From a virus, in the IMG/VR virus record IMGVR_UViG_3300045120_000364, positions 1 to 40,290 of that record: a stretch of DNA of 40,290 bases. One strand, given 5' to 3'. The position numbers were made by a program, and so were the translations under genes. Under the pieces are notes generated by a model. That model saw only the letters and a program-made list of their open reading frames with translations. It was not told the DNA's origin and ran no database searches. Of this stretch, positions 6,245 to 21,442 are shown one piece after another. How positions within the stretch are numbered: position 1 is the first letter of the stretch; every line of letters begins with the position of its first letter.

Positions 6245-7195
6245 TCACCGCCGCGCCGGCAGTCGATGTATCGCCGCCGTCGCCATCCGTTCCTGATCCG
6301 CGCTGGCCGTATAAAAACTGATCATCGCCATCGTTTTGTGTCCGGTGATCGCGGCGATTTCGTTCATTGAACATCCAGCTTCCGCGAGGTTCGCCGCCGC
6401 CAGCTTGCGCAACCCGTGGATGTTCCACCCGGACGGAAAGCCCAGGCGATCGATCGCCTCCTTCATGCCCTTGGAGGCGCTTTCCGGTTTCCAGGGCCAA
6501 CCTCGGGCGTTGACCAGGATCGTGGCCGCGCGGCGCTCCCAGCCGTCCATGGCGGTCTTCAGGACGGGGTGAACGGGGATCACCAGCGAAACGTCCGTCT
6601 TTTCCTGCGTGAGCCTGAGCCGCGCGCCGTCGTAGTTCGACCATGCCAGACGGCACAAATCGCCGCGCCGCTGCCCGGTGTATAGCGCCATCAGAATCAG
6701 CCGGCGCAGGTGCTCCGGCATTTCGTCCAGGGCGCGGGCGGCGGCATCAGCGGTCCACGCGGCGAAGTGACCGCCTGGAATGGACTTTATCCGCATCGTC
6801 GGGTTCGCCTCGACGAAATCGTTCTCCATACCCCAGGCATACAACGCCGAGGTGGCGCGCACGAAAGCATTGGCGGCGGCCGGCTTGCCGGTTTCGTTGA
6901 TCGCGTTGCGAATGATGGTGATGTCGCGCCGGGTCAGATCGGGCACACGGGTATGACCGATCCGCATGAGAGGGCGCAGATATCTGATGTAGCGGTCCTG
7001 GGTGGCCGCCGACAGGCGTTTCCATTCCGGGCTGCCCTGGTAAGCCTGGATCAGCATGGCGATCGTGTCGCGCTCTCGGGGCGCCGTGGCTTTGGTTGTC
7101 CGCTCATACGCGTAGATTTTGATCGAGCCGTCCGCGAGCCGCTTTCGTACCACTTTTGGCTTGCGCTTCGGCTTTGATTTCGGCTGCCAGGGCAT
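6245..7195 (-). CDS. int: Tyrosine recombinase / phage integrase
   Basis: The 316-residue protein would integrate the phage into, and with excisionase remove it from, the host chromosome. After a basic N-terminal arm-binding part and a core-binding domain come the catalytic signatures: TGQRRGD with Arg176, a Lys near 199 in the beta hairpin, NIHGLRKLAA with His260 and Arg263, TGHKT with His286, and the nucleophile Tyr295 in SFYT. The ATG at 7195 is preferred because a GGGGGAGG ribosome site lies just upstream. It overlaps the excisionase gene by 92 bp. Length and motif order are normal for the family. Confidence 0.95.
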   Translation of the reverse strand: MPWQPKSKPKRKPKVVRKRLADGSIKIYAYERTTKATAPRERDTIAMLIQAYQGSPEWKRLSAATQDRYIRYLRPLMRIGHTRVPDLTRRDITIIRNAINETGKPAAANAFVRATSALYAWGMENDFVEANPTMRIKSIPGGHFAAWTADAAARALDEMPEHLRRLILMALYTGQRRGDLCRLAWSNYDGARLRLTQEKTDVSLVIPVHPVLKTAMDGWERRAATILVNARGWPWKPESASKGMKEAIDRLGFPSGWNIHGLRKLAAANLAEAGCSMNEIAAITGHKTMAMISFYTASADQERMATAAIHRLPARR

Positions 7196-7400
7196 CAACC
7201 GCCTCCCCCGTGCTGTTCCGCGCATCCTCGACGCCCATCGCCCGGTCGAGCGCGATCCGATCCCAGCGCGGGGACTGCGGCCCGAGTTTGTACGATGCCG
7301 GGGGTAGCGTGCCGCGGCGCACGGCGCGACGGAAGCCTTCGGTTTCGAGGCCCACGTACCGGGCGGCGTCGGACGCGGGCAACCAGCGGACGTCGGTCAC
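7104..7400 (-). CDS. Excisionase-like / AlpA-type HTH protein
   Basis: The 98-residue product begins MTDVRWLPASDAARYVGLET, the start of a winged-helix MerR/AlpA fold in which a short DAARYVGL helix, a turn and FRRAVRRGTLPPASYKLG form the DNA-contacting part. The C-terminus is a charged helix. Such proteins bind near the attachment site and turn integrase toward excision. The GTG at 7400 overlaps the preceding stop as GTGA, and the gene runs 92 bp into the integrase gene, a usual xis-int arrangement. Confidence 0.75.
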   Translation of the reverse strand: MTDVRWLPASDAARYVGLETEGFRRAVRRGTLPPASYKLGPQSPRWDRIALDRAMGVEDARNSTGEAVDALAAEIKAEAQAKSGTKAARGRLDQNLRV

Positions 7401-10980: not shown

Positions 10981-11238
10981 ATGTTCACTCAAGACGCTCC
11001 CCTTTCGGCCGAACAGATCGTAAAGGCGTTCGGCGGTCCAACAGTGCTTTCGCGGCATCCCGCGCTGGCGGCACAACGTAGTGCGATCGCGAACTGGGCG
11101 AAGGACGGCATCCCCGCGAGGCACTGGCCCGCCTTGGCTCGGATCGCGGCTGGTTCAAGTGATACCAGGCACATCACGATCGAAGTACTCGAACGGCACA
11201 CGCGCCCAGTTTCCGCGTCAGCCGAGCCCGTAGCCTGA
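10981..11238 (+). CDS. Cro-like antirepressor/regulator
   Basis: The 85-residue protein contains EQIVKAFGGPTVLSRHPALA, then AIANWAKDGIPARHWPALARI. This is the Cro/YdaS-type HTH in which a GG-containing first helix is followed by a W-x-x-GIP-x-RHW recognition region. It is the first rightward gene after the operators, divergent from the repressor, which is the usual place of cro. It probably represses the repressor promoter in lytic growth. The start is directly downstream of the -10-like element. It overlaps the next gene as TGATG. Confidence 0.8.
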   Translation: MFTQDAPLSAEQIVKAFGGPTVLSRHPALAAQRSAIANWAKDGIPARHWPALARIAAGSSDTRHITIEVLERHTRPVSASAEPVA

Positions 11239-11825
11239 TGCCCGTTTATCTGGTCCAGGCCGGCGAGAACGGCCCGGTAAAGATCGGCTTCTCTAATTCT
11301 GTTCAATCTCGCCTCCGCAAGATTCAAACCGACATAGCGGAAAAGTTGATCCTTCTGCGCCTCCTTGATGGAGGACGTGAACTGGAAGCCTCGCTTCACG
11401 CTCGTTTCGCCGCTCAACGCCTTCGTGGCGAGTGGTTTCAGTTTTCGAAGGAAATGCTGTGGCACCTCGGTGCTACTGAATTGATCCTCAAAAAACCCAC
11501 AAAAAACGTGAATGTTCGACAGAAATGGTCGCCTGAATCCCGGGTGCGCGCAGCGGATCGGCAATTGGAACTTAACGCCGACCCCGTTCGAAAAGCTGAA
11601 AAGATGGCGAAAATGCAGGCTACCGCGCTTCGCAAAATCACCATCGGAAAGTTTTTGGATGTCGTAAATCGCGCGGGCGGGTGGCGGAAACTGTCTGCCG
11701 CCATCGGCGTCTCCCCTGAAGAATTGATGAGTTGGCAAACAATCCCCGTCCGTTACCTGGAGGCCGTGGCGGCGGCCGCGCGACTTCCGGTCATGAAGCT
11801 CACAGCCCTCGCGAGCGCCGCCTGA
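11238..11825 (+). CDS. Mug113/T5orf172 GIY-YIG-like domain fused to Cro-like HTH
   Basis: The 195-residue protein has an N-terminal GIY-YIG-related domain (about 1-72). Tyr4 in VYLVQAG, VKIGFS at 14-19, Arg25, Glu48 in ELEASLHARF and GEWFQF match the Mug113/T5orf172 branch. A basic linker (about 90-130) leads to a C-terminal HTH (GGWRKLSAAIGVSPEELMSW, then IPVRYLEAVAAAA) like that of the preceding Cro-like protein. The family members are suspected DNA-binding or nicking proteins in phages. It is translationally coupled to cro. The joining of a nuclease-like domain with a Cro-like reader suggests a sequence-targeted endonuclease or regulator. Confidence 0.72.
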   Translation: MPVYLVQAGENGPVKIGFSNSVQSRLRKIQTDIAEKLILLRLLDGGRELEASLHARFAAQRLRGEWFQFSKEMLWHLGATELILKKPTKNVNVRQKWSPESRVRAADRQLELNADPVRKAEKMAKMQATALRKITIGKFLDVVNRAGGWRKLSAAIGVSPEELMSWQTIPVRYLEAVAAAARLPVMKLTALASAA

Positions 11826-13048: not shown

Positions 13049-13500
13049 GCGCGGTGCAACCTTTCCTGTTCGGTGACACCTGGATACCGGTGCTGGATGG
13101 CAACGACAGCGCGCGAGCCATTTTCCATCGGCATTACTCATGGAAACCATACCGCGACGGACGCAAGCCGCTGCTGTTCACCGGCCCTGGCGGCAAGCTC
13201 GTGCTGCTGTGGCCCGATGCCCGCGCGCTGTTCGTCTGGCGGCGCTTCATCAGCGGCGATGGGCAAACCGGCATTAACTGCGCCGTGTTCCGCAACGAGG
13301 GCGATGTCCGTTCATCCGATCTGATCCGCGCGGCCGACGCCATCGCTGACCACCGCTGGCCGGGCGAGCGGCATTACACGTACGTCAACACCCGCAAGAT
13401 CCGAAGCACCAACCCAGGATTTTGTTTCCAGATGGCCGGGTGGCGGCGATGCGGCATCACCAAACACAACAAACTCGTCATCCTTGAGAGAATGCCGTGA
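13045..13500 (+). CDS. Conserved phage protein, possibly GNAT-fold
   Basis: The 151-residue product (GTG start overlapping the rusA stop) has AIFHRHYSWKPYRDGRKPLL near its N-terminus. Later it reads INCAVFRNEGDVRSSDLIRA and TNPGFCFQMAGWRRCGITKH. The arrangement of strands, a helix after RSSDLIRAADAI and a GF/GW turn recalls acetyltransferase-like phage proteins. No acetyl-CoA pyrophosphate loop is clearly seen, so catalytic activity is uncertain. It sits between rusA and a gcrA-type gene in the replication/regulation block. Confidence 0.6.
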   Translation: MSAVQPFLFGDTWIPVLDGNDSARAIFHRHYSWKPYRDGRKPLLFTGPGGKLVLLWPDARALFVWRRFISGDGQTGINCAVFRNEGDVRSSDLIRAADAIADHRWPGERHYTYVNTRKIRSTNPGFCFQMAGWRRCGITKHNKLVILERMP

Positions 13501-13964
13501 TGCCCGTGCAACCAGACGATGACATCATCATCTCGGAACGACAGAATGGCACGTCAACCGCCGCGATCGGGCGGTTGCTGGGCCGGGGAAAGAACTCCGT
13601 CGCCGGCCGCATCAACCGATTGAAGCGACTTGGCCTCATCACGGAGGCGCTACCATCCCCGATCCACCGACCCGGTGATCCGCCACCATACCCGCGCGCG
13701 GCCCCTCCAAGGCCGCCTCGGGCGGACGTGCCGCCGCCGTCCGTTGTTTGTTCTCCTGTCATATCGTCAGGCCAGATTGTCACCCCCGCCCCCGCCCTGG
13801 CGCCGCTCCCGCTCCCTGGACAATGCCGCTATCCGCTGTGGCGCGATGATGAGCGGCCCGACCACCGCTATTGCTCGCGGCCCGCCCGCCTCGGCTCGTC
13901 ATACTGCCCCGCCTGCCGCGCCATTTGCTACGCGCGCGAGCCACGACACTGGGCGGCGGCGTGA
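13500..13964 (+). CDS. gcrA: GcrA-family cell-cycle regulator, phage-encoded
   Basis: The 154-residue protein has an N-terminal HTH (ERQNGTSTAAIGRLLGRGKN, then SVAGRINRLKRLGL, about 13-46), a long Pro-rich linker (50-107) and a C-terminal cysteine block. That block is GQCRYPLWRDDE, RYCSRPARLGSSYCPACRA and ICYA, with Cys109, 125, 136, 139 and 143. This is the layout of alphaproteobacterial GcrA, which works with sigma-70 RNA polymerase at promoters carrying CcrM-methylated GANTC. The phage copy may redirect host transcription. The N-terminus lacks the usual initial Trp-containing stretch and is acidic. ATG at 13500 overlaps the upstream stop (TGATG). Confidence 0.82.
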   Translation: MPVQPDDDIIISERQNGTSTAAIGRLLGRGKNSVAGRINRLKRLGLITEALPSPIHRPGDPPPYPRAAPPRPPRADVPPPSVVCSPVISSGQIVTPAPALAPLPLPGQCRYPLWRDDERPDHRYCSRPARLGSSYCPACRAICYAREPRHWAAA

Positions 13965-18024: not shown

Positions 18025-18134
18025 GACTCTGCTCCCGTGTTAACGACGCGCGTCGATATGAACTGACGTGATGCCCGTCAATGGACTTGTTTCATGAATA
18101 TTCCCAATGAAACCGCCGATTTTTGATCGAAAGC

Positions 18135-18164
18135 TTGACAGATCGAGGCGTGTCGGACTTTACT
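18135..18164 (+). promoter_or_regulatory. Candidate late promoter
   Basis: TTGACA at 18135-18140, an 18-base spacer and TTTACT at 18159-18164 form a sigma-70-like promoter. It stands at the head of the late rightward block, divergent from the antisense HTH gene. If used, transcription would begin near 18171, so the first gene must start at or after that point. Confidence 0.45.
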
Positions 18165-18188
18165 TCGGCCGTCTCACAGCATGGGATA

Positions 18189-18599
18189 GTGTCTCAGGTG
18201 TCTGCTAGCATCGCCCTTGCAAAGGATGGCAGCCGGAGACGTGCACCGGCGCACGCGTGGAAGCCAGGACAGAGCGGAAACCCGCGTGGCAGGGAGCCCG
18301 CACTGGTCGATATCGCGGCTCTCGCTCGCCAGCATGGACCGAAGGCCATCGAGATCGTGGCTGGCCTCATGGTGCGCGACCCTGACAGTAAGGTGCGCCT
18401 CGCCGCCGCCATCGCACTGCTTGATCGTGGTTTCGGTAGACCCAAACAGGAGATTGAGACATCGGGCAACGCGACCATCGAGCTGCACCTCGTCGCCGCG
18501 CGCGTCATATCGCAGGAGTTGCTGGCAACAGCCGACGCACCGCCGACGATCGAACACACGGTGACCCCGAGCGACACGCTCGATACCCCGACGGAATGA
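18189..18599 (+). CDS. DUF5681-like protein, possible small terminase
   Basis: The product carries HAWKPGQSGNPRGREPALVD, the hallmark of the DUF5681 family, followed by a helical region (ALARQHGPKAIEIVAGLMVR, RLAAAIALLDRGFGRP). Such proteins are frequent next to the large terminase and are suspected to be small terminase subunits or packaging regulators that bind DNA with a helical domain. The start is uncertain: GTG at 18189 is chosen because it follows the proposed promoter, while the frame is open back to a TTG at 18123. Confidence 0.7.
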   Translation: MSQVSASIALAKDGSRRRAPAHAWKPGQSGNPRGREPALVDIAALARQHGPKAIEIVAGLMVRDPDSKVRLAAAIALLDRGFGRPKQEIETSGNATIELHLVAARVISQELLATADAPPTIEHTVTPSDTLDTPTE

Positions 18600-18907
18600 A
18601 CATGCACAATAGCACTGCGGCTGTAGTGTTAGTGTCGTTTACAAACCTCGGATGCATGCGTAAAGGAACGTTTGATCAGTATCCCACCTCGTCTGTATGG
18701 CGGGAAATGCCCGTATTCATTGGTGTTTCAGTGCGTCGCACACACGCGCAACTACGCAACTGCATAGTTACGCAACTACGCAGTTACGCAACCGCACAGG
18801 CGCACGACCCGCCGCACGCCCCCCCTCACGGCCATCTGGTGATGGCACTGGCCCCCCTTCCAAATTCCGCCACGCGTTTTCCCAACATCGTTACGAAATC
18901 GCCATGA
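18596..18907 (+). CDS. Doubtful ORF over the repeat region before the terminase block
   Basis: A 103-codon frame starts in an ATGA overlap with the DUF5681 gene and stops just before the membrane-protein gene. Its base use is AT-richer and its third positions are unlike the neighbours, and it runs through a tandem repeat. I see no domain. It is listed because the start overlap fits the operon; most likely the stretch 18600-18908 is non-coding. Confidence 0.22.
   Translation: MNMHNSTAAVVLVSFTNLGCMRKGTFDQYPTSSVWREMPVFIGVSVRRTHAQLRNCIVTQLRSYATAQAHDPPHAPPHGHLVMALAPLPNSATRFPNIVTKSP
18746..18800. repeat. ACGCAAC tandem/inverted repeat, candidate packaging or control site
   Basis: ACGCAAC occurs at 18754, 18770 and 18786, with a variant ACGCAGT at 18778. 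Two palindromes of form AACT-N4-AGTT lie at 18758-18769 and 18774-18785, 16 bp apart. The run lies between the small-terminase-like gene and the terminase block, where cos or pac sites are common. No end-cleavage point can be read from sequence. Confidence 0.55.
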
Positions 18908-18908
18908 C

Positions 18909-19106
18909 ATGAATGAGTCCACGCAGCAGTTACTGGCGGGGATACCGGAGAAGCTGATCAAGGCGTTGCCTCCGGCGTTTTTGTTGCTGGCGTTGCTCAA
19001 TATCTTGTTCATGGGCGCTTTGACGTATGCGGTGTCGCACAACACGGCGGCGCGGAACGACCTGCTCAGGACGATCATTGACCGTTGTCTGGAGAAGGCG
19101 GGATGA
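18909..19106 (+). CDS. Small single-span membrane protein (holin-like)
   Basis: The 65-residue product reads MNESTQQLLAGIPEKLIKAL, then a span PPAFLLLALLNILFMGALTY (about 21-42), then a charged helical tail ending DRCLEKAG. One N-terminal amphipathic helix plus one span fits a small holin or pinholin-like protein, although similar proteins of unknown role stand beside terminase genes in other alphaproteobacterial phages as far as I recall. It is coupled to the next gene by ATGA. Confidence 0.65.
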   Translation: MNESTQQLLAGIPEKLIKALPPAFLLLALLNILFMGALTYAVSHNTAARNDLLRTIIDRCLEKAG

Positions 19107-19441
19107 ACGACGCCCCGATCGTTGATCCGCGCGAGATATTATTGGCGGATTTATGTCTGTCGGTTCGCACGTCTGGTGCGTTGGATCGGGACCGCCACAA
19201 GACGTTGGGAGATGTGGCCCGGCTGACTGCCCCGGAGGTTTTGCGGATTCCGAACATTGGGCATGTCTCATTGCAGGAGATCGAGGGCATATTGTCGCGG
19301 CACGGGTTATCGTTGCGTCCCCATGGTCCTTATCGCGAGGCTCCGTCATATCCGCCCTCGGTGGCGTCTTCATTGGCGGCCATTGAGGATCGGTTGAGGA
19401 AGATAGAGAATTTGTTGGTGTATGGGAAAGTTCATGGCTGA
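19103..19441 (+). CDS. RNA polymerase alpha C-terminal-domain-like protein
   Basis: The 112-residue protein has an alpha-CTD-like domain at about residues 13-72: LADLCLSVRTSGALDRDRHK, TLGDVARLTAPEVLRIPNIG and HVSLQEIEGILSRHGLSL. This aligns by eye with the E. coli RpoA end (LxLxVRSANCL...IGDL...LxxTPNxGKKSLxEIK). Of the residues that contact DNA in E. coli, Arg265, Gly296 and Ser299 are kept (Arg22, Gly53, Ser56), while Asn268 and Lys298 are Gly25 and Val55. A Pro stretch and a coiled coil (AAIEDRLRKIENLLVYG) complete it. It may act on transcription of the late genes by imitating the alpha subunit. It overlaps the terminase gene by 8 bp. Confidence 0.8.
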   Translation: MNDAPIVDPREILLADLCLSVRTSGALDRDRHKTLGDVARLTAPEVLRIPNIGHVSLQEIEGILSRHGLSLRPHGPYREAPSYPPSVASSLAAIEDRLRKIENLLVYGKVHG

Positions 19442-20891
19442 CGCGTCGCCCTCTCCTCTTCCGAGTGACTGGGGCGAGCGGATCGCGGGTGCGGAGAACC
19501 CTTTCCATGTGGCCATATCGCGCTATGCGCGGGCTCCGGTGGCGTTTGTGCGGGAGGTGTTGCGGGTTGAGCCGGACCAATGGCAACTCCAGGCGCTGCA
19601 AGCCCTCGCGCGTGGGCACACCAGGGTGGCCATCAGATCCGGTCACGGTGTTGGCAAGACGGCGTTCGCGGCGTGGGTATTGGTATGGTTCGCGAACACG
19701 CGTGCGCCGTTCAAGATCGCGTGTACGGCTCCGACCTCGCCACAACTTTTCGATGCGTTATGGCCTGAGACGATCAAGTGGTTCAACCTCCTCCCCAGGG
19801 GTTGGCGTGAGTTATGGAACATCACGAGTGACCACATAACGTTAAGGTCGGATCAGGAGTGTTTCATAACAGCCAGAACCTCCCGCGCGGACACTCCGGA
19901 GGCGATGGCTGGGTTGCATTCAGACCACGTCCTCCTCGTGGCGGACGAGGCATCGGGCATACCCGAGGCTGTATTCGAGGCGGCTGGTGGGAGCATGAGC
20001 AGCCCTGGGGCGATCACGTTGTTGATAGGCAATCCGACGCGGTCCTCTGGTTTTTTCTGGCGTTGCCACATGTTGGAGCGGGACCGTTGGTTCGTGATGA
20101 AGGTATCGTCTGCCGAGAGCAAGCGTGTTTCGCCTGGGTTCGTTGATGAGATCGCGAAGCGGTATGGCGTTGACAGCAATGCGTATCGTGTCCGTGTGTT
20201 GGGGGAGTTTCCGCAGGCTGACGACAACACTCTCATAGGCGCTGAGCTGGTTGACAGCGCGATGCGGCGGGACATTCCCCTTGTGCTGACGGAGTCGGAG
20301 ATCTGGGGCGTTGACGTGGCGCGGTTTGGTTCCGATGCCAGTGTGTTGATCAAGCGTCGTGGCCACGTCGTGACTGAGATGCCGCGTCGTTGGCGGCAGT
20401 TTGATACGATGCAATTGTCTGGCGCTCTCAAAGCCGAATACGACCTCCAGACAATAAAACCCGCTCTCCTTGTCATTGACGTCATAGGGATTGGCAGTGG
20501 GGTTGTTGACCGGTTGCACGAGCAGAATTTGCCGGTGTTGGGGTTGAATGTGAGCGAGGCGGCCAGCACGACGGGGAAGTATGCGCGGCTACGCGATGAA
20601 CTCTGGGTTCGGACGAAGGAGTGGTTGGAGAGCCGGGCGGTGAGACTCCCTCTCGATGATCAACTCAGAGACGACCTTGTTGCTCCGCGTTATGCGTTTC
20701 TGAGCGATGGGCGGCTCCAGGTTGAGAGCAAGAACTCGATGCGGAGCCGGGGGTTGGCCTCGCCGGACGCGGCGGACGCGCTCATTCACACCTTTGCCCA
20801 GCAGGGTCTGGGCATTGGTTCTGGCATGACCTCGGGGCTGCATGACAGCCGGCCGTTCGGGATGGCATTTTCGCCTGGGGAGTTCGTATGA
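19434..20891 (+). CDS. terL: Terminase large subunit
   Basis: The 485-residue packaging motor has an N-terminal ATPase with Walker A SGHGVGKT (69-76) and Walker B LLVADEA (Asp171, Glu172), plus a coupling motif around LLIGNPT (196-202). The C-terminal RNase-H-like nuclease has GVDVARFGSD (Asp294), LLVIDVIG (Asp349) and SPDAADAL (Asp448). It pumps DNA into the prohead and cuts it. The start at 19434 gives a normal length; the stop overlaps the next gene as ATGA. Confidence 0.95.
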   Translation: MADASPSPLPSDWGERIAGAENPFHVAISRYARAPVAFVREVLRVEPDQWQLQALQALARGHTRVAIRSGHGVGKTAFAAWVLVWFANTRAPFKIACTAPTSPQLFDALWPETIKWFNLLPRGWRELWNITSDHITLRSDQECFITARTSRADTPEAMAGLHSDHVLLVADEASGIPEAVFEAAGGSMSSPGAITLLIGNPTRSSGFFWRCHMLERDRWFVMKVSSAESKRVSPGFVDEIAKRYGVDSNAYRVRVLGEFPQADDNTLIGAELVDSAMRRDIPLVLTESEIWGVDVARFGSDASVLIKRRGHVVTEMPRRWRQFDTMQLSGALKAEYDLQTIKPALLVIDVIGIGSGVVDRLHEQNLPVLGLNVSEAASTTGKYARLRDELWVRTKEWLESRAVRLPLDDQLRDDLVAPRYAFLSDGRLQVESKNSMRSRGLASPDAADALIHTFAQQGLGIGSGMTSGLHDSRPFGMAFSPGEFV

Positions 20892-21442
20892 GCGCGGCTT
20901 TGGCGGCACGGGAGCCATGGCTTGGGGTGGTTCCGGTTCTGGCGATGGGCGCGGATGCCGTATTGCTGGATTTACTGGCACGTGATCCGGAGCCGTTGGC
21001 CACGGATCACCGGTATTTCCCTGGCCTTCGCCCTCATGATGCCGGCCTGCCGTTACGGCATTTCAATTACGAAGAGGAGCGCGCCGCCGAGGAAGCCCGC
21101 GAGGAAGCCCGTCGGGCATTGCTTGAGCGACTGCGCGAGGAGCAGCGGCGTCGGGCGTTGGCCCAGCACGCGGCGCGTCGGGATCGTGAGCGAAATCAGG
21201 CGTCTGCTGAGGTGGCGTGGCGCCGGGATATCAAGGCCGGCTGGCTTGAAATGCTGCGGGACGCGGCATCGCGGGTCAGGGGCACGCCGCATGAGGCTGT
21301 GTTGCTGCCGGATCTTGAGCGCGACATGGCGACGGTGGCGGGCTGGCCGGTGGAGGCCCCGTTCCCTGGCTGGCTCGACCGGGACCGTTTCAAGGCCGCG
21401 TTTGCTGGCCGGCTCGCGGCATGTGAGGGAACATCATCATGA
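20888..21442 (+). CDS. Coiled-coil protein between terminase and portal
   Basis: The 184-residue product has a globular-looking N-terminus (1-60) and a very charged helical centre (YEEERAAEEAREEARRALLE and onward to about 110). A C-terminal part with Trp-Pro turns follows (AGWPVEAPFPGWLDRDRFKA). It is held in an ATGA chain between terL and the portal block, so it probably takes part in packaging or head assembly. No family recognised. Confidence 0.65.
   Translation: MSAALAAREPWLGVVPVLAMGADAVLLDLLARDPEPLATDHRYFPGLRPHDAGLPLRHFNYEEERAAEEAREEARRALLERLREEQRRRALAQHAARRDRERNQASAEVAWRRDIKAGWLEMLRDAASRVRGTPHEAVLLPDLERDMATVAGWPVEAPFPGWLDRDRFKAAFAGRLAACEGTSS

Follow-up and report, generated by a model that had tools for sequence, protein, structure and literature searches.

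The window analysed here is a whole IMG/VR virus record (G000) of 40,290 bases, classed as linear, and encodes an SU10-type portal (7e-143), a capsid protein (4.4e-62) and a primase/helicase-like protein. The gene examined encodes a 112-aa protein resembling the C-terminal domain of the RNA polymerase (RNAP) alpha subunit (alpha-CTD), and lies within the order DUF5681 protein, 65-aa TM protein, alpha-CTD protein, terminase large subunit (TerL), 184-aa gene and portal (Table 1). Its location beside the terminase, as given in the preliminary description, was borne out, the end of the gene overlapping the TerL start whether this is placed at 19422 or at 19434.

Table 1 Genes and protein features of the window discussed in the text
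Feature	Position	Strand	Evidence and remarks
Tyrosine integrase	6245-7225	-	PF00589, 1.6e-18
GcrA-like protein, sigma-70-cofactor-type regulator	13497..13964	+	PF07750, 6e-8, above cut-off; early region
DUF5681 protein, candidate small terminase	18123..18599	+	weak phrog_2538 match, 0.0075
65-aa single-TM protein	18909..19106	+	stop overlaps alpha-CTD start (ATGA); recurs 5′ of TerL in relatives
Alpha-CTD-like protein gene	19103..19441	+	112 aa; ATG start; SD GGAGAAGG 5′ of ATG
Alpha-CTD-fold domain, residues 12-72	19136..19318	+	profile, PDB sequence, AF2, Foldseek; R22, G53, S56, E59 = E. coli R265, G296, S299, E302
C-terminal helix, residues 87-111, likely coiled coil	19361..19435	+	AF2; L91, I94, L98, I101, L105
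Terminase large subunit (TerL)	19422..20891	+	phrog_2, 5.1e-38; likely true start 19434 by relatives; overlaps alpha-CTD stop
184-aa gene	20888-21442		no sigma-region-4 part

The phage is probably temperate, since a tyrosine integrase gene is present. GcrA is a sigma-70 cofactor, and a GcrA-like protein is encoded in the early region. GcrA is known as an alphaproteobacterial regulator (PMC6630229), and the portal matches phages including those of Sinorhizobium and Rhizobium at 28-36%. This soil phage of the SU10 portal type probably has a host in the Alphaproteobacteria, to judge only from the GcrA homologue and the weak portal similarity to phages including Sinorhizobium/Rhizobium ones. A search for prophage relatives found no portal or TerL relatives in GTDB genomes. 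Elsewhere in the window (11238-11825), a protein with a T5orf172/MUG113 (GIY-YIG-type) domain is preceded by an 85-aa ORF weakly like YdaS/Cro.

Codon-position GC of the open-reading frame (0.59/0.45/0.65) follows the same trend as the other genes of the phage. Read in the corresponding register, the antisense strand is interrupted by stops. Neither a single-sequence search with the 112-aa protein against viral contigs, which gave no match, nor the PHROGs profiles, which gave nothing useful, identified it. Near the operon, no sigma-70 promoter-like sequence was found (0 vs 0.8 expected) and no UP-like element was shown. A conserved TGGCACTGG(C) at 18843-18853, which 17 of 56 relatives share ahead of their TM/TerL operon, may be a promoter or a packaging site. 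Repeats with 8-bp spacing, CGCAACTA / CGCAGTTA, occupy positions 18747-18799; they were considered as a binding array common to alpha-CTD carriers and rejected as such, being unseen in the relatives' upstream regions.

The 112-aa protein was matched by Pfam PF03118 (RNA_pol_A_CTD) with E = 2.2e-10 and 40.6 bits over residues 12-65, above the curated cut-off of 23.8 bits, and a phmmer search against PDB chains returned RpoA / RNAP alpha subunits only (best E = 2.8e-7). The NCBIfam rpoA models met the protein through their C-terminal part only, far below their cut-offs, and the alpha-NTD dimerisation/assembly domain is absent. An AlphaFold2 (AF2) model, built on a shallow alignment of nine sequences, had a pLDDT of 93-96 (about 95) over residues 11-70, and all 50 of the 50 Foldseek matches listed from the PDB were RNAP alpha chains, alpha-CTDs or RNAP complexes containing them, the best superpositions among them reaching 0.8-1.0 Å rmsd over about 64 residues. 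The B. subtilis alpha-CTD matched the model with an rmsd of 0.8 and a TM of 0.91. This agrees with the preliminary description, in which residues 13-72 were said to follow the RpoA C-terminal domain; the generic recombination-type HhH fold that it named as the contrary outcome did not arise. Such motifs are common and short, and the domain is only about 60 residues long, which would suit a generic HhH protein unrelated to RNAP alpha. Every strong match by profile, PDB sequence or PDB fold is an alpha-CTD, gene structure and relatives speak against a spurious ORF, and the chance of either is next to negligible. The profile match and predicted fold show that the protein genuinely belongs to the RNAP alpha-CTD domain family, as a free-standing member with a predicted C-terminal helix.

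The full DNA-contact set of the E. coli alpha-CTD comprises R265, N268, C269, G296, K298, S299 and E302, and E261 contacts sigma region 4. Alignment confirmed that the window protein keeps the equivalents of R265 (Arg22), G296 (Gly53) and S299 (Ser56) and replaces N268 with Gly (Gly25) and K298 with Val (Val55), all as previously described. Further residues came to light: E302 is kept (Glu59), as are the D259 and N294 equivalents, and C269 is changed to Ala, K271 to Asp and E261 to Cys, leaving four of the seven DNA-contact residues in place. R265, G296 and E302 are the sole invariant columns of the nine-sequence alignment, and the relative L013 has Thr at position 268. The alpha-CTDs of Caulobacter on AT-rich DNA (9zum), B. 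subtilis (1z3e) and E. coli (3n4m), at 33-36% identity, share the kept R265, G296, S299 and E302 with the window protein, and 1z3e and 3n4m have the same fold at the rmsd given above. Unlike all three, the window protein is free, carries a C-terminal coil and has N268, C269, K271, K298 and E261 changed. Its model shows the predicted fold persisting while canonical contacts change.

These residues bear directly on the mechanism first proposed for the protein, in which it would compete with the host alpha-CTD at late promoters or take its place there; such a mimic would bind UP elements or host activators. The homologous domain and the kept R265, G296, S299 and E302 would fit such a role, and nearly all determinants are kept in other viral alpha-CTD proteins. 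In E. coli RpoA, R265 and N268 touch DNA, N268A gives no complementation and abolishes UP-element activation, N268T abolishes PBAD, and K271 substitutions lower PBAD strongly (PMC11434276). Given that substitution of N268 costs E. coli RpoA its UP-element activation, N268G weakens the idea that the protein replaces the host alpha-CTD, and C269A, K271D, K298V, the changed sigma-contact residue (E261C) and the lack of an alpha-NTD for entering RNAP count against it as well. The residue evidence argues against the window protein as a faithful stand-in for the host alpha-CTD, and we regard the mechanism first proposed as decidedly improbable.

C-terminal to this domain, a helix of 25 residues was modelled at moderate confidence (pLDDT roughly 50-78). 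Its L-I-L-I-L repeat has a 3-4 spacing, and a related segment is present in the relatives L002, L009, L013 and L089, so that the added coiled coil of the preliminary description is upheld at that level of confidence. Among L002, L013 and L089 the coil is 55-60% identical, while heads are 25-44% identical between distant members. A recombinational swap of coil-coding DNA was considered and found unsupported, as the coil DNA is only 60-74% identical between distant members.

The gene occupies a variable position. In L004-L008 and L010, whose TerL is 93-94% identical, the TM gene runs straight into the TerL start with no alpha-CTD gene between them, and the slot of a further close relative, L003, likewise has none; PF03118 was not found anywhere in the L003 record, the longest of the close relatives (38.8 kb). 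Searches of whole records with PF03118 found one copy each in the window, L013 and L071 and none in other relatives, with no second copy elsewhere in the window or the relatives' records, and among the 54 distinct relatives whose upstream sequence sufficed, the same three had an alpha-CTD in the slot region. The slot holds alpha-CTD with coil, alpha-CTD alone, coil alone (L089) or, in L002 and L009, a coil with a degenerate head folding as alpha-CTD. The L002 head has no Pfam match, and its model, whose alignment included the window and L013 proteins, is closest to alpha-CTDs (E 3e-3, TM 0.84, rmsd 1.3). The L002 and L009 heads keep the fold and lose the hairpin signature, and the Arg265 equivalent is kept in every slot member possessing a head. 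These comparisons show that the alpha-CTD gene is optional and sits in a variable slot, flanked by a small membrane-protein gene and the terminase. Because close relatives with a 93-94% identical TerL lack it in the slot, and L003 throughout its record, it is not an obligatory late-promoter device. This dispensability, together with the changed residues and missing alpha-NTD, disfavours a faithful stand-in; the window protein would not replace the host alpha-CTD like for like.

The main rival to a role in transcription is that of a packaging accessory, in which the head would do no more than bind DNA close to the packaging site and the coil would dock on the terminase or the DUF5681 protein. 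The genes are co-directional with overlapping ends and joined to TerL, a position that DNA-binding proteins usually occupy, and the DUF5681-TM-TerL module is common to relatives. The coil is also conserved where heads diverge or, in L089, are missing. Against this, close relatives package with a nearly identical TerL and lack the gene, and the DUF5681 gene is already there. The 112-aa protein has no small-terminase (TerS) profile match in Pfam or PHROGs; it was therefore rejected as the small terminase itself, for which the DUF5681 gene is the better candidate. A packaging accessory is, on balance, somewhat unlikely. In about ten distant relatives (L069, L093, L094, L099-L103, L105, L107, L108) TerL is immediately preceded by a GcrA-like HTH gene, at a position where no DUF5681 gene was detected, which suggests from gene order that the HTH gene is a replaced small terminase or a regulator.

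The degenerate heads also raise the possibility of a protein-binding adaptor or decoy, in which the fold is kept for a partner (a host transcription factor or a phage protein) and DNA binding is largely lost. At bacterial promoters the alpha-CTD serves as a contact hub, the Foldseek matches listed for the window protein include CRP and Spx complexes, and the L002 and L009 heads retain their fold without the hairpin signature. Such a loss of DNA binding is at odds with the Arg265 equivalent being kept in all slot members with a head, and this explanation appears quite unlikely.

Viral contigs commonly contain free alpha-CTD ORFs. When canonical viral members were aligned and used for a scan, 96 relatives came up, of which 80 were kept; these and the earlier loci gave 73 distinct alpha-CTD ORFs, 70 of them under 280 aa and probably not RpoA itself, to judge by length. 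Among ORFs with a letter at the position concerned, R265 was present in 72/72 and G296 in 71/71, two residues partly imposed by the search patterns; of those not fixed by the patterns, N268 was found in 63/72, S299 in 60/71 and E302 in 64/71 (plus 6 Asp), and K/R298 was found in 56/71. That E302, S299 and N268 are also kept suggests that the family at large is under selection for contact with DNA. The group for the most part retains its DNA-contact residues, so that the window protein is a divergent member of it.

The statement in the preliminary description that such a device is not commonly described in phages holds for experiments, as no experimental study of phage alpha-CTD proteins was found in the freely accessible literature searched, and fails for annotation, where such ORFs are frequent. 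Erythrobacter phage vB_EliS-L02 ORF 40 is annotated as alpha-CTD, without experiment (PMC9127768), and one such protein of Bacillus phage Goe8 is labelled RNA polymerase subunit alpha. Like the window protein, ORF 40 and its counterpart in Rhodococcus phage Finch are stand-alone alpha-CTD domains, and one protein of this type, A0A6J5QDR9, is 44% identical to the window protein over 66 columns. These other phage proteins differ in that they are not in a slot before the terminase (in the records looked at), and most viral members keep the canonical DNA-contact residues. A 95-aa bacterial hypothetical protein family, NCBIfam NF005841 (PRK07758), is likewise a short stand-alone alpha-CTD-like domain, and matches the window protein weakly (0.0054, far below cut-off). 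Proteins of this kind are therefore annotated but uncharacterised, and the window protein is a divergent new member of the group.

Other small relatives of host promoter-recognition factors are also borne by phages, such as the GcrA-like proteins of Agrobacterium phage Atu_ph08 and phiCbK-like phages, whose fold and mechanism differ from those of the alpha-CTD protein. In virus L114 (3770-5342), two neighbouring alpha-CTD genes adjoin a stand-alone Sigma70_r4 protein (8.5e-13); one of the two alpha-CTD proteins bears an N-terminal sigma-R4-like HTH (1.4e-4, just below cut-off), and the second occurs at 83-91% in four further contigs (L125-L128). This cluster is a viral set of promoter-recognition modules, perhaps more interesting than the finding in the window, and the place where a transcription role seems most likely. 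Within the window's own phage family, L091 (7126-7779) carries a Sigma70_r4 domain (4.2e-11) on a protein beside TerL/portal, the rest of which resembles the window's 184-aa gene, and L071 (4534-4953) encodes a sigma-R4-like HTH (1.7e-6) on a protein between TerL and portal. No sigma-R4 gene was found within the window. Alpha-CTD, sigma-region-4 and GcrA-like modules recur around the terminase/portal genes of this family.

Our leading reading, held tentatively, is that the window protein would bind DNA as an oligomer and modulate transcription in an accessory role. It would be made late, together with the terminase; its heads, two or more of them, would be linked by the C-terminal helix into a tethered alpha-CTD pair free of polymerase and would hold DNA via Arg22, Gly53, Ser56 and Glu59 with altered affinity or specificity; and, as the least certain step, the protein would modulate, as an accessory factor, how phage or host DNA is transcribed. 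A transcription role is favoured because of the domain's ancestry, the DNA-contact set kept in viral relatives and the company of sigma-R4 and GcrA-like genes. Counting against it are the changes at E261, N268, C269, K271 and K298, the degenerate L002/L009 heads that keep the fold, and the search near the operon, which showed neither a promoter-like sequence nor an UP-like element; the coding position beside the terminase suits packaging equally well.

A broader and unlikely extension is that the phage family carries a scattered kit of host-derived promoter-recognition modules, shuffled onto small terminase/portal-region proteins, with the window protein acting as a coil-joined alpha-CTD pair that would retune the host RNAP, or the phage's DNA, at a late stage of infection. 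Phages are known to target the alpha subunit through ADP-ribosylation (T4 Alt/ModA) or through acetylation-triggered cleavage (phiKMV-like Rac). An alpha-CTD that a phage encodes as a free protein would add a third route to the same interface, and with the window member one can test whether such proteins bind DNA, act as polymerase decoys or aid packaging.
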